DNA of 32,329 bases from assembly GCA_016214385.1 (NCBI GenBank), contig JACROP010000007.1, forward strand, positions 1 through 32,329. The letters are read 5' to 3'. This document shows positions 4,820 to 24,963 of the stretch, in pieces (positions within the stretch are counted from its first letter, which is position 1; the number at the start of each line of letters is the position of its first letter). A model generated the notes under the pieces. That model saw only the letters and a list, made by a program, of their open reading frames with translations, made no database searches and was not told the DNA's origin. This DNA is from Nitrospirota bacterium (GTDB lineage: Bacteria > Nitrospirota > Thermodesulfovibrionia > UBA6902 > JACROP01). The position numbers and the translations under genes are program-made.

Positions 4820-5398
4820 TTATCCTATATTAAAGCCTGGAGGGAAGGGGCAGTATATCCTTGCTCTTTTAGGTGTAGGGCCGCTATCCAGGAAGTAAGC
4901 AGATATCTTAAAGAAAAAGTTTGCGACACTCCCTGATAAGCTCCCATCTCTGTTTTCCCTCCAGGGCCTGGTCTGTTCAACATCGTTGATGGCTACGATA
5001 AGGTAAAGGTTATCCTGTTCCATTCCCTTTATGTCTTCAGGGCTTGGTATCGGTATTCCCTTGGTAGAGCCAAACTGGGTATGGGAGTGGAAGTCCCCTA
5101 TAATCTGAAGCTTTTCAAACTTGGAAAGAATGGGCTCTATTTTTTTATGATTCCTGTGGTGGAATATTACGCCCTTTGGCTTTCTCTTGGCTGTCTGAAA
5201 ACTGAAGGCATGCTCGATAATAAAACGGTCCTCGAGCCTGTAGCCGAGGAGATAGCCGAGGGACTCCCGCTTGAAGACCTCTGCGCAGCTTAAAAGGAGG
5301 TCCATAAAGGCGTTCTCAGAGAGATACACCTTCTTTGGCCGCCTTTTTCTGGCTATTGTTTCCTGTGCTCTGGCAATCTTACTGTCATTACCGGGCAT
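4820..5398 (-). CDS. JAB1/MPN (JAMM) metalloprotease-like protein
   Basis: The 192-residue product has a JAMM domain. A glutamate lies in RESLGYLLGY (about residue 45) and the zinc motif is FHSHTQFG...PSPEDI, that is HxH followed by SxxD. The loop between HSH and SPED is about 12 residues rather than the usual 7. JAMM proteins are isopeptidases or peptidases acting on ubiquitin-like or cysteine-biosynthesis carrier proteins. No ubiquitin-like or ThiS-like partner is encoded nearby, so the substrate is unknown. The start overlaps the end of uspA by 46 nt. The ATG at 5398 has AGGGG about 8 nt upstream, so the overlap looks real. The C-terminal ~40 residues are not recognised. Confidence 0.75.
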   Translation of the reverse strand: MPGNDSKIARAQETIARKRRPKKVYLSENAFMDLLLSCAEVFKRESLGYLLGYRLEDRFIIEHAFSFQTAKRKPKGVIFHHRNHKKIEPILSKFEKLQIIGDFHSHTQFGSTKGIPIPSPEDIKGMEQDNLYLIVAINDVEQTRPWRENRDGSLSGSVANFFFKISAYFLDSGPTPKRARIYCPFPPGFNIG

Positions 5399-6837: not shown

Positions 6838-7576
6838 AGAGCAACCGCCGACCTTCAAGAGTTAAATCAGGCTTAATCTCTATTGCCCCCTCTATGTAAG
6901 GAGCTACAAGCCCAGCGAAACCACCAGTGGCAACTACTCTCAGGTCTTCCTTTAGCTCTTTTTTCACCTCTCTTATAATTTTTTCAGTGGCCCCGGCATG
7001 GCCTATGACCAGCCCTGATAAAATGTTGCTTGCAGTATCGTCCCCGATTACTTTTTCCGGCCTTTTTAGCTCTATCCTCGGCAGTTTTGATGTCTTTTCA
7101 CAGAGGGCATCTGCTGAAATTCCAAGGCCAGGCATTATCAGGCCACCTGTGTATTCGCCTTTATCTATGATGGCGCTGAAAGTGGTGGCAGTGCCAAAGT
7201 CTATAACAAGCACAGGGCTATTGTAAAGATTATAGGCAGCAACTGCATTGGCAATCCTATCAGCGCCGAGGTCTTCAGGATTTTTTATATTGAACTTCAG
7301 GCCTGTATTGAGCCTGCTGCTTACAATTAGGGAGTTAATCGAAAAGCTCTTTCTTACGGCATTTGTGAAGGCATCGGTGATTTCAGGGACTACGGAAGAT
7401 AAAATAGCGCCTTCTGGCTTTTTGAGGTGACTGTGGAAGATAAAGCTCTCTAAGAGAAGAGAGTATTCATCAGTAGAGCGCAGCGGTCTTGTATTGAGCC
7501 GCCAGGTGGTTTTAAACCCATCGCTGTAGGCTCCTATTGTTATATTGGTGTTGCCTATGTCAATAGCTAAAAGCAT
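6821..7576 (-). CDS. coaX: Type III pantothenate kinase
   Basis: The 251-residue product phosphorylates pantothenate, the first step of coenzyme A synthesis. It shows the ASKHA-fold motifs of CoaX: the N-terminal DIGNTNITIG phosphate loop, the GADRIAN motif, the DFGTATTF block and GGLIMPG. The length is normal. It follows birA by 6 nt on the same strand, a common pairing of BirA and CoaX, and overlaps galT at its 3' end. CoaX enzymes differ from CoaA in lacking feedback by CoA and in needing a monovalent cation. Confidence 0.95.
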   Translation of the reverse strand: MLLAIDIGNTNITIGAYSDGFKTTWRLNTRPLRSTDEYSLLLESFIFHSHLKKPEGAILSSVVPEITDAFTNAVRKSFSINSLIVSSRLNTGLKFNIKNPEDLGADRIANAVAAYNLYNSPVLVIDFGTATTFSAIIDKGEYTGGLIMPGLGISADALCEKTSKLPRIELKRPEKVIGDDTASNILSGLVIGHAGATEKIIREVKKELKEDLRVVATGGFAGLVAPYIEGAIEIKPDLTLEGRRLLYERNA

Positions 7577-7582
7577 TACCGC

Positions 7583-8587
7583 TCACTGTTCTTTGGATTT
7601 TGAATTTTTCAGTATTGTAACATCTCCAGCACATACTTTCTCGATCCGGCCTGAGGGAAGTTTTACTATAAGTTCACCATCGTCATCGATGTTTTCGGCA
7701 ATTCCTGAGATTATCCGCTTTGCCATTGATACTTTTACCCTTTTCCCGAGGGTGGATGTAAGAGTTCTCCACTCATCGAGCAGGGGTCTTCTGCCGACCT
7801 TTAAAAGGACACTGTACCAGTGTTCCAGCTCTCTCAATATCCGACCTAAAAATTCAACCCTGCTTATTGATTCCCGGGCTTCGTGCTTCAAAGAAGTGGC
7901 TATGATCCTCACGTCCTAAGGCAGGGTGTTTAAGTCAAGGTTTACATTTATACCCATACCGAGGGCGACAAAGCTTATCCTGTCCATGTCTGATTTCATT
8001 TCTGTAAGGACACCCCCAACTTTTTTGTCTCCTATAAGGATGTCGTTGGGCCACTTTATTGTGGCCTTGAGCCCTGTGTATTTCCTTATGGCCGAGACAA
8101 TTGAAACTGCAGCCATGAGGGTAAGGAGTGTCGCATCTTTTGGCGGAAATGGCGGCCTTAAGAGTAAAGTAAAATAAAGATTTACGCCGGGTGGAGAGAT
8201 CCAGGTTCTTCCGAGTCTGCCCTTTCCTTTTTCCTGTGCATCTGCAACAACGATGGTTCCCTCCGGGCTTCCTTTCTGACCCATCTCCATGGCTATGTCA
8301 TTGGTTGATGTGGTTGATTCAAAGAATAAGACTTTTTTGCCGAGGAGTTTCCCCTGAAAAACTCCTGTGATTTCATCTGCGGTCAGGATATCAGGGCTGC
8401 GCAGGAGCTTGTAACCCTTCGACGGCGAAGAATTGATAACATAGCCTTTTTGTTTCATAGCCTTTATCCTCTTCCAGATGCCTGCCCTTGTGATTCCGAG
8501 GGCCTTGCTCATGGCCTCGCCTGATACAAAGGTGCCTTCCCTTTCTTTTAAGAGTTTCAGGAGGTTATTGCCCACAGCTTTTTCCAT
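7583..8587 (-). pseudogene. birA: Biotin-protein ligase/repressor interrupted by in-frame TAG
   Basis: Read through, this is a normal BirA of about 333 residues. It has an N-terminal winged helix (about 1-60), the biotinyl-AMP loop GKGRLGRTW, KWPNDILIGDKKVGGVLTEM and GINVNLDL. The C-terminal SH3-like domain ends in VKLPSGRIEKVCAGDVTIL. Codon 224 (7916-7918) is TAG, followed directly in the same frame by DVRIIATSLKHEARESISRVEFL. Relatives usually have Glu or Gln there, one base from TAG. The first 223 codons keep most of the catalytic core but lose its last helices and the C-terminal domain. Downstream starts exist at GTG 7912. The ATG at 8587 was chosen because the N-terminus fits the family and overlaps the upstream gene by 23 nt. 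A recent nonsense mutation, a sequencing error or readthrough are all possible. Confidence 0.88.
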
Positions 8588-15191: not shown

Positions 15192-15259
15192 AATTTATTG
15201 ATTTTACTAAATCTCATCCACTTCGGCTGATAGAAAGTTGCCAACTCGTTCCCTCTCCC

Positions 15260-15389
15260 TTGCCCTCCCCTACGACCCTCAGCTTGTTTGCAAAGGTCAA
15301 AAGCATCCCAGGCCACAAATGGCACCCAGCCGAAAAATACTGGAGCTTTCCCGATACCAATGGAACTTTAGAGAAGATTCTAAAGGCTT
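15260..15389 (+). pseudogene. Frameshifted duplicate of the recombinase 5' module
   Basis: This stretch is nearly identical to 15488-15616, the part of the recombinase gene that encodes its HARP-like module. An extra T at about 15288 puts it out of frame, and the first ~20 bases differ more. A frame starting at 15238 runs through it into the recombinase, but the encoded peptide is nonsense after PYDPQLV. It is best read as the remnant of a second, related recombinase gene fused to this one by deletion, or as a tandem duplication. Confidence 0.8.
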
Positions 15390-15670
15390 AATGAGCTTGT
15401 CGAATTTAGGGGGGATTGATATAATCTTACCGATTGGAGGTAATTATGGGGTGACTATCAGTAAGAATAGCTCAGGTAGGATAACAGTTGCCTTCCCTTA
15501 TAACCCTCAGCTTGTTGCAAAGGTCAAAAGCATCCCAGGCCACAAATGGCACCCAGCCGAAAAATACTGGAGCTTTCCCGATACCAATGGAACTTTAGAG
15601 AAGATTCTAAAGGCTTTTGACGGAGAAGAAATTCATATAGACCCTGTGTTGCAAGTCCAGCCTTCCACCC

Positions 15671-15708
15671 CTGTCATTGCGAGGAGCGAAGCGACGAAGC
15701 AATCTCAT
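15671..15708. repeat. In-frame TCATTGCGAGGAGCGAAGCG repeat in recombinase linker
   Basis: This is the dispersed repeat seen at 11304-11350, here in its uninterrupted form. It is translated as VIARSEATKQS in the recombinase linker. It adds residues without a stop or frameshift. Confidence 0.85.
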
Positions 15709-15773
15709 ATCTCTCCGTTTAGAAAAACAAAAGAAGTTCCCTCGCCCCTTTGGGGAGAGACCACCATCTTTAC

Positions 15774-15811
15774 CCCCTCTCCCCTTGCGGGAGAGGGCAA
15801 GGGTGAGGGGG
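15774..15811. repeat. In-frame CCCTCTCCC/GGGAGAGGG repeat in recombinase linker
   Basis: The palindromic element CCCTCTCCCCTTGCGGGAGA... is translated as PSPLAGEGKGEG. It is the same family as 2746-2813 and 30961-31000. A smaller CCCCTTTGGGG hairpin lies just before it. Confidence 0.85.
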
Positions 15812-16630
15812 ATTTTGAAGACCTCCGCAGAGAACTCCTCTCAAGAAAATACAGTTATAAAACCGTCAAGGGTTATATCTATTTCAATAGAGATTTTCTG
15901 AACTTTTCAGGCAAAAACCCCGCTGAGATTAACGATAACGACATAAAAGATTATCTTCTTTACCTTGCAGAAGAAAAACAATCTGCAACTTCCACATTGA
16001 ATCAGGCAATCAATGCCCTCAAGTTTTACTACGGCTCAATGCTAAAGAGAAAGTTTATTTACGAACTAAAAAGACCTCGCAAGGACAAGAAATTGCCGGT
16101 TGTTTTAAGCAAGGAAGAAGTTGCAAAAATCTTATCTTCCGTGGATAATTTAAAGCATAAAGCCCTGCTTATGCTCGTCTACTCAGCAGGGTTAAGAGTT
16201 GGCGAAGTAGTGAAATTGAAGCCAGAAGACATTGACAGTAAAAGGATGCTCGTTTTTCTCAAAGGTTCAAAAGGCAGAAAAGATAGATACACATTACTAT
16301 CTGAAACTACTTTAAAGACCTTAAGAGAATATTGGAAGGAATATAAACCAACAAAGTGGTTGTTTCCTGGACCAGACAAAGAAAGATACATTACCATAAG
16401 AACTGCCCAAAGGGTATTTGAGATGGCATGTGAAAAGGCAGGAATTAAAAAGGATGTTGCAATTCATAGCCTCAGACATTCATTTGCCACTCATCTTTTA
16501 GAAAATGGGACAGATTTGAGATACACCCCGCACTTTATGGAGAACCTAAAATGTAAAATGTATAATTTAGGTTTTAGGTTTGACCCCAAAACCATGACAT
16601 TGCAAAAGTTAAGAAAGAGGTAAAGTATTA

Positions 16631-17050
16631 ATGCCAGGGAAAATTTTAAAATGGAAAAAAGAGGCAGATTCTTGTAAACATGCAGTTATTGTGGATTTTG
16701 TATTCGACAATGGATTGTTTTTTATATCAATAAAAAACATTATCGATGAGCCAGTGTTTAAGGTTTCTATTAAATTTGACAAAAAGATATTTGGTGTAGA
16801 AGGGAGTAAAGAAATTTCAGCGCTTCCACTTTTTCAAAATATCGAATTCTTGCCTCCTCAAAAGGAAATCATGACATTTTTAGATACTAGTGCATCGTAT
16901 TTTAGAAGAGGAGAACCTACAAAGATTTCTGCAAGGATTTCATATCAAGATTCGAAGGGAACGAAATACTCTACTACCATAAAACACAATTTAGAAATAT
17001 ATAAGGAAATCGGATACATACGTAGATTGGAGATGGGACATATCACATAG
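16631..17050 (+). CDS. Unknown protein next to the injection-system tube gene
   Basis: The 139-residue soluble protein looks like a beta-sandwich, with alternating strands such as HAVIVDFVFDNGLFFISIKN and KISARISYQDSKGTKYSTTIKHN. It ends in a charged helix (LEIYKEIGYIRRLE). There is no signal peptide or membrane segment. I do not recognise a characterised family. It starts 8 nt after the recombinase stop and is followed after 18 nt by the tube-like gene, so it is probably co-transcribed with it. Its base and codon use is more A/T-rich than that of the housekeeping neighbours, which fits acquisition with the island. A partner or chaperone of the tube protein is a guess from position only. Confidence 0.75.
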   Translation: MPGKILKWKKEADSCKHAVIVDFVFDNGLFFISIKNIIDEPVFKVSIKFDKKIFGVEGSKEISALPLFQNIEFLPPQKEIMTFLDTSASYFRRGEPTKISARISYQDSKGTKYSTTIKHNLEIYKEIGYIRRLEMGHIT

Positions 17051-17068
17051 ACAGGAGGTGATACAGCT

Positions 17069-17512
17069 ATGCCAGTAGGAACAAGAAAAGACCCCTATAT
17101 AAATTTTATGTTCATGGTAGAAATTGACGGCATCGCCCAGGCCGGGTTTAGCGAGTGCATAATTGGAGATACAACCATAGACTCCATAGAGTACAGAGAG
17201 GGCAATGAGCCTACAACAGTAAGAAAACTATCAGGACTTACTAAGTATGGAAATATCATACTTAAATGGGGAATAACAGATTCGATGGATCTCTATAACT
17301 GGATAAAGAAGGTTATAGAATCTGGTGCAGAAGGAGAAAGGAAAAATATGTCCATTATCATAATGGATGAAGCTGGCAATGGTAAGGTTAGGTGGGACAT
17401 TGTTAACGCATGGCCTGTAAGATATAAACCTTCAGACTTAAAAGCCAAAGGTAATGAAGTATCTATTGAGACGATAGAGATAGCCCATGAGGGACTGATA
17501 CGAGTAAGTTAG
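17069..17512 (+). CDS. Phage tail/contractile injection system inner tube protein
   Basis: The 147-residue product matches the gp19/TIGR02241 family, which forms the inner tube of phage tails and extracellular contractile injection systems (Afp1/Pvc1-like). Visible hallmarks are DPYINFMFMVEIDG near the start, AGFSEC, the EYREGNEPTTVRKLSGLTKYGNI block, LKWGITDSMDLYNW, and the closing NAWPVRYKPSDLKAKGNEVS with IEIAHEGL. AGGAGGTGAT before the ATG is a strong ribosome site. No sheath, baseplate, spike, ATPase or terminator gene is present, so it is an orphan here. It may complement a distant system, be a relic, or have been reused. The family is certain; the role is not. Confidence 0.88.
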   Translation: MPVGTRKDPYINFMFMVEIDGIAQAGFSECIIGDTTIDSIEYREGNEPTTVRKLSGLTKYGNIILKWGITDSMDLYNWIKKVIESGAEGERKNMSIIIMDEAGNGKVRWDIVNAWPVRYKPSDLKAKGNEVSIETIEIAHEGLIRVS

Positions 17513-17600
17513 GAGACTCTTTTGACTGAGTCATCTTAAGAGATGCGATAGAAACATGTTGGGTGGGAAATGACAAGATTAAGTCAAAGTATGGGCAAAA

Positions 17601-17685
17601 CAGCGTATAACAGCGGATAAAAGGCTACGGTGCTATGCACCTTCGGCAACTTCTTTTATCCGCAGCCCGTTTGAAACTTAACGCA
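17601..17685. other. attC-like folded recombination site (candidate)
   Basis: The sequence starts CAGCGTATAACAGCGG. It has an 11-bp stem GCGGATAAAAG (17613-17623) / CTTTTATCCGC (17653-17663) and an inner hairpin GGTGC-TAT-GCACC (17629-17641). It continues GCAGCCCGTTTGAAA and ends TTAACGC (17678-17684), an imperfect inverse of the GCGTATAA at the left. Layout, size and the TAAC...AGCCCGTT pattern resemble integron attC sites, but the right-hand core (GTTTGAA) departs from GTTRRRY. It lies after the tube-protein gene in an otherwise gene-free spacer. It may instead be a terminator or repeat. Confidence 0.4.
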
Positions 17686-17705
17686 CATTTAGAGTATGAT
17701 TAATA

Positions 17706-24920: not shown

Positions 24921-24963
24921 ATAAATTAGGCCAATGTTTAAATATAACATTGGCCTAATTTAT
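24921..24963. promoter_or_regulatory. Perfect 18-bp inverted repeat between divergent genes
   Basis: Arms ATAAATTAGGCCAATGTT (24921-24938) and AACATTGGCCTAATTTAT (24946-24963) are exact inverses around a 7-nt AT loop. It lies 44 nt before the GGDEF start and 86 nt before the MOSC start. It is upstream of both genes, so it cannot terminate either of them; an operator for a dimeric regulator is possible. It could also be a remnant of a small palindromic repeat. Confidence 0.6.

Follow-up and report, generated by a model that had tools for sequence, protein, structure and literature searches.

An orphan injection-system tube protein and a small beta-sandwich partner as a candidate two-gene module in Nitrospirota and ANME-1 archaea

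Introduction

Studies of CIS tube proteins treat them as components of sheathed injection machines. The locus described here raises the question of what such a protein does when its gene stands apart from a machine and adjoins the gene of a small partner protein. The locus lies in the 2.0 Mb genome of a Nitrospirota bacterium (assembly GCA_016214385.1, completeness 98.9%), within a stretch of 32,329 nucleotides of contig JACROP010000007.1 that is referred to below as the window. If the pair is kept without a machine in bacteria and archaea, this would represent a second life for the tube ring. Moreover, the partner, named U139 after its 139 residues, would be a marker by which genome surveys could distinguish tubes in reuse from those of genuine eCIS.

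Organization of the Locus

The locus consists of three open reading frames on one strand, separated by gaps of 7 and 18 nt, so that the close spacing (<20 nt) described previously is confirmed among the real genes. They follow a tRNA-Met/yidC/mnmE cluster and are succeeded by a run of housekeeping genes. The tRNA-Met was the sole match near the locus in a search for known RNAs, scans for promoters and terminators around the locus gave hits at chance level, and an element boundary sought in the window was not found. The U139 gene has a GC content of 32% vs. 43% for the window.

Two further repeats were observed in the window. At 16543-16580, between the break of the recombinase gene and U139, there is an inverted repeat of 15 bp (87%), accompanied by a promoter-like TATAAT; it could be the marker of a join or the driver of the pair, with promoter hits in this region being at chance level. 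An 18-bp perfect inverted repeat with a loop of 7 nt (ATAAATTAGGCCAATGTT) is located at 24921-24963.

The Tube Protein

The last of the three genes (17069..17512, plus strand) encodes a protein of 147 aa that had been described as a contractile-system tube protein. Its assignment is unambiguous, as it matches the gp19/CIS tube family PF06841 with an E value of 1e-45 and TIGR02241 with 2e-43, which identifies it as a main tube protein of the eCIS type. A strong ribosome-binding site, AGGAGGTGAT, can be read in the sequence at 17053..17062 on the same strand. With a pLDDT of 67, the AF2 model is only modestly reliable and served solely for fold confirmation; by Foldseek, the fold agrees with CIS tubes, and the nearest solved structures are 7b5h and 7adz. 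The protein is 71% identical to tubes in complete eCIS operons of the same class, while its similarity to phage tubes is merely about 31%. One complete operon of this class (L176; G180:C53:96000-114000) includes a 437-aa gene which, judged by eye, has the look of a DUF4157-type cargo.

Among the tube positions conserved in eCIS, 60 of 66 are retained in the window protein and 64 of 66 in the orphan tubes of ANME-1 archaea discussed below. Ile64 is common to all three orphan tubes and is found in 0 of the 27 eCIS tubes compared, where Thr or Ser occupies this position. In the window tube, the conserved Arg11 and Arg14 are additionally replaced by Ile and Met. Residues 11, 14 and 64 are possible sites of a changed lumen or partner contact.

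The Partner Protein U139

U139 (16631..17050, plus strand) is recognized as an open reading frame with homologues, and it is predicted to be a cytoplasmic beta-sandwich. Its AF2 model (pLDDT 81) shows a small beta-sandwich with terminal helices. By sequence, it has no match in Pfam, NCBIfam, PADLOC or the PDB, and shows just a weak similarity (E 4e-4) to phrog_9607, a phage family whose function is unknown. The earlier wording of an uncharacterised beta protein is therefore appropriate, since no named family applies. A named fold could not be assigned either: Foldseek matches were weak, with 3isy and the cytoplasmic domains of Kir channels as the best at a query TM below 0.5. One viral protein matches the model at TM 0.55 in the structure search.

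The short form of U139 is rare. None was found elsewhere in 396 genomes of the window's phylum, and beyond two ANME-1 loci, none in 58 genomes of the ANME-1 class; a profile search of 394 genomes of the ANME-1 phylum yielded no further copy. U139 was likewise absent from 14 other genomes holding related tubes, and among the fetched tube loci, it was found near no tube other than those of the ANME-1 pairs. A role as an eCIS accessory was rejected on these grounds. Searches of viral contigs and plasmids found no U139, and those of phages gave a single match at chance level. Together with the low similarity of phage tubes, these results led us to reject a viral origin of the pair.

Recurrence of the Pair in ANME-1 Archaea

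When the genomes of about 85,000 species were scanned with a tube pattern, 203 relatives emerged, and the analysis continued with the best 80 loci. A sheath gene is present in 78 of these 80 loci. The two sheathless ones come from ANME-1, a group of methane-eating archaea, and belong to Methanophagales archaeon RS_14_10 (L015) and to the ANME-1 single-cell genome AG-394-G06 (L017). Among the best 80 of 203 loci, U139 stands beside the tube in exactly these two, an association with a Fisher p of 3e-4, which counts the many related Paenibacillus among the 78 sheathed loci as independent. The homologues match U139 with 62% identity over 112 aa and lie directly 3' of the tube gene. In all three genomes that hold a short-form U139, the two genes are adjacent on the same strand with fewer than 40 nt between them; the known instances are these three only, and two of them come from close relatives. 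Since the pair recurs without a sheath in ANME-1, the tube is not confined to full operons, nor is the pair limited to a single genome. The central guess of the preliminary description, namely, that a tube protein has been reused alongside a partner dedicated to it, gains support from this recurrence.

The two ANME-1 copies share a common block of 1.1 kb (92%), and their surroundings are mostly different. On each of the two ANME-1 contigs, the region upstream of the pair holds a type IIG restriction-modification gene (L015:159-2363 and L220:5312-7702); the two genes are related, and their distances are about 3 and 11 kb. Also close to the tube and U139 in L015 are what look by eye like an MNT/HEPN pair and an AbrB/PIN pair. 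In the same locus, imperfect direct repeats of about 135 bp (5130-5264 and 7089-7221) bracket the unit; in L017, the upstream (5') copy alone is present (7751-7879), and about 0.7 Mb of that genome yielded no other clear copy. These repeats were considered as possible element ends. Papers on ANME eCIS report sparse clusters in ANME-1 (PMC10553843; see also PMC9012536), and the pair is not described in the accessible parts of these papers or of the other literature searched.

Absence of an Injection Machine

The genome of the window holds one copy of PF06841 and no second tube. The sheath family PF04984 was detected neither in this genome nor in the two ANME-1 genomes, whereas two control genomes were positive. 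Nine other eCIS genes, searched with queries from the L176 operon, were not found in the window or in the ANME-1 loci; in three positive-control loci, most of these genes were detected. In other words, the sheath, baseplate, spike, cap and ATPase that define an eCIS locus do not accompany the tube, and the previous claim that the window contains no other tail or injection genes is upheld. The sheath and tube searches also gave no indication of an injection apparatus elsewhere in the genome, nor of a remote contractile machine of the kind that an orphan Hcp-like protein would serve. The ANME-1 genomes are incomplete, so that distant eCIS genes may have been missed in them.

The Recombinase Remnant and the Hairpin

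Upstream of U139 lies the remnant of a XerA-type tyrosine recombinase with a HARP-like N-terminal module (15391..16525, plus strand). PF00589 covers positions 2-149 of 172, and the NF040815 match reaches 234 of 263. The DNA homology that it shares with intact relatives from its order breaks off at about 16525, and the LGH box with the second histidine and the catalytic Tyr (motif IYTHVS), present in two of these relatives, are missing. The gene described earlier as a recombinase of the XerC/D class is not intact: the catalytic end has been lost and the 461-aa frame is broken. The score also falls below the cut-offs of the IntI models, so that a functional integron integrase is not indicated.

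The description of the N-terminal module as HARP-like holds in part: a match to PF07443 exists, but at 19.6 bits, it is under the Pfam cut-off of 25. A direct duplicate of this module (15260..15389, plus strand) is out of frame and contains an internal stop; the copies at 15288-15389 and 15515-15616 are 100% identical over 102 nt. As the first copy is out of frame, the gene proper begins near 15391 and not at 15238. The linker that joins the HARP-like module to the recombinase core contains two REP-like repeats in frame (15676-15809). Similar repeat remnants occur at the same linker in the two intact relatives (L133 and L134), as though insertions favoured this site. Fragments of the same recombinase family are scattered through the genome of the window and through its order. 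The recombinase is probably a decayed bystander that lies outside the module.

Downstream of the tube gene, an inverted-repeat search found a perfect stem of 11 bp (17613-17623 and 17653-17663, no strand assigned) with a loop region of 29 nt, which had been presented as an attC-like fold. The attC consensus is RYYYAAC...GTTRRRY, with an imperfect stem and extrahelical bases. The flanking heptamers deviate from it by one mismatch (GTATAAC) and two mismatches (GTTTGAA). The folding z-score of 17613-17663 is -2.0 or -3.1, depending on the strand, and nine further inverted repeats at least as long as this one occur elsewhere in the window. No second copy of the fold was found in the genome, which gives no array, and none of the 395 other genomes of the phylum contains its core pattern. 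An integron gene cassette was rejected because the R sites are mismatched, the stem is perfect, a second copy is missing and the recombinase has no catalytic end. The single, unique stem with deviating core sites is consequently not accepted as attC or as part of the module, and is probably a bystander hairpin.

Evolutionary History and Selection

The order of the two genes is inverted between the lineages, with U139 preceding the tube in the window and following it in ANME-1. In the tree, the window tube groups with the eCIS tubes of its own class and with Methanosarcina, and the ANME-1 orphan tubes fall in another eCIS lineage. A tree constrained to unite the three orphan tubes in a single clade is worse by 25 log units (AU p = 0.036), a modest value given a short protein of 147 residues and the long branch of the window tube. 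Both ANME-1 genes are under purifying selection, with a dN/dS of 0.28 for the tube (Fisher p 0.005) and of 0.18 for U139 (Fisher p 1e-6). Either the association was transferred and one partner was then replaced, or it was built twice, and both histories point to function. Given the inverted gene order and the different tube lineages, the link between the tube and U139 looks functional.

Interpretation of the Pair

We propose that U139 and the tube constitute a self-contained two-gene module, in which an eCIS tube is reused with a dedicated partner outside a contractile machine, and we regard the chances of this proposal as about even. The pair might instead be a relic of a decaying eCIS locus, comprising the tube and an accessory or immunity gene. 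Such a history would suit a window tube that is nearest to the eCIS tubes of its own class, has a long branch and lies near a decayed recombinase, but it appears unlikely: U139 occurs in none of the eCIS loci examined, both ANME-1 genes are under purifying selection, and the same two genes would need to have survived in two unrelated lineages. It is quite unlikely that the pair is a remote component, with an extra tube and U139 as cargo or adaptor for an injection system whose genes lie in another part of the genome. A well-known precedent exists in orphan Hcp genes, whose products are used by T6SS loci at a distance, and the tube could carry U139 as cargo; however, neither the 98.9% complete genome of the window nor either ANME-1 genome has a sheath, and the former lacks a second tube.

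That U139 and the tube are unrelated and merely happen to adjoin each other is very improbable. The instances are few and the gene order in the window is unlike that in ANME-1, yet the close same-strand adjacency holds in all three genomes with a short-form U139, and U139 coincides exactly with the sheathless tubes among the best 80 of 203 loci. Scarcely any credence is left for the view of the preliminary description, in which the pair is a mobile cassette that the neighbouring HARP-Xer recombinase would move via the attC-like site. The presence of the pair in bacteria and archaea, the low GC of U139 and the different neighbours of the two ANME-1 copies speak for movement, and mobility of the pair is only hinted at by them. 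The cassette reading is largely refuted by the dead recombinase without its catalytic end, by the lack of any recombinase, HARP-like or other, beside the ANME-1 pairs, by the unique fold without attC features and by the failure to find an element boundary in the window.

If the two genes are indeed a self-contained module, a main tube protein would have been captured from an eCIS. Judged by its sequence, this protein should be able to form hexameric rings or short tubes, and the retention of most conserved positions suggests that ring formation is probably preserved. U139, a small cytoplasmic beta-sandwich made alongside the tube, would most likely bind the ring at its end, rim or lumen; physical contact between the two proteins is what we infer. 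U139 would thereby control or use ring assembly in the cytoplasm, with no contractile machine. As no injection machine was found in the three genomes, a function inside the cell is more probable than delivery.

The most likely use may be intracellular conflict: the orphan tube, together with U139, would serve as a decoy or poison subunit and keep incoming contractile phages, or competing injection systems, from assembling their tubes. This possibility is attractive because interference with tail assembly is an established defence strategy (PMC11364771, PMC10884400); it is only a guess, and one considerably more apt to miss than to hit. The pair has no match as a defence system in PADLOC. In a wider formulation, it would be a two-gene system of bacteria and archaea, whose tube was taken over on two or more occasions from different injection systems and forms a machine-free ring with a beta-sandwich partner for conflict or scaffolding. 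This formulation is tentative, and on balance we lean against it. Because the link between the tube and U139 is exclusive, a second life of the tube ring can be tested directly using two small proteins.

Comparison with Known Systems

The closest known counterpart of the window tube is the main tube of eCIS/PLTS (Afp1/Pvc1 type; 7adz, 7b5h), with which it shares both family and fold. Those systems encode a full machine, whereas the present tube lacks a neighbouring sheath, second tube, baseplate, spike, cap or ATPase gene and is accompanied by U139 instead. Orphan Hcp of T6SS is likewise a tube protein encoded apart from its machine. It serves a T6SS of the same genome; in the present case, no machine was found, and the partner belongs to an unnamed family.

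The Tai and Tab systems of tail-assembly inhibition (PMC11364771, PMC10884400) resemble the pair in the proposed effect alone, which is to stop foreign tail assembly. Their descriptions stem from prophages and satellites, and the target of Tab is the tape measure protein. Finally, a distant U139-like domain, with roughly 22-29% identity, is found in larger proteins from seven loci. Several of these proteins have an apparent N-terminal membrane helix and one is fused to AlbA_2, whereas U139 is the soluble domain alone, encoded beside a tube gene.
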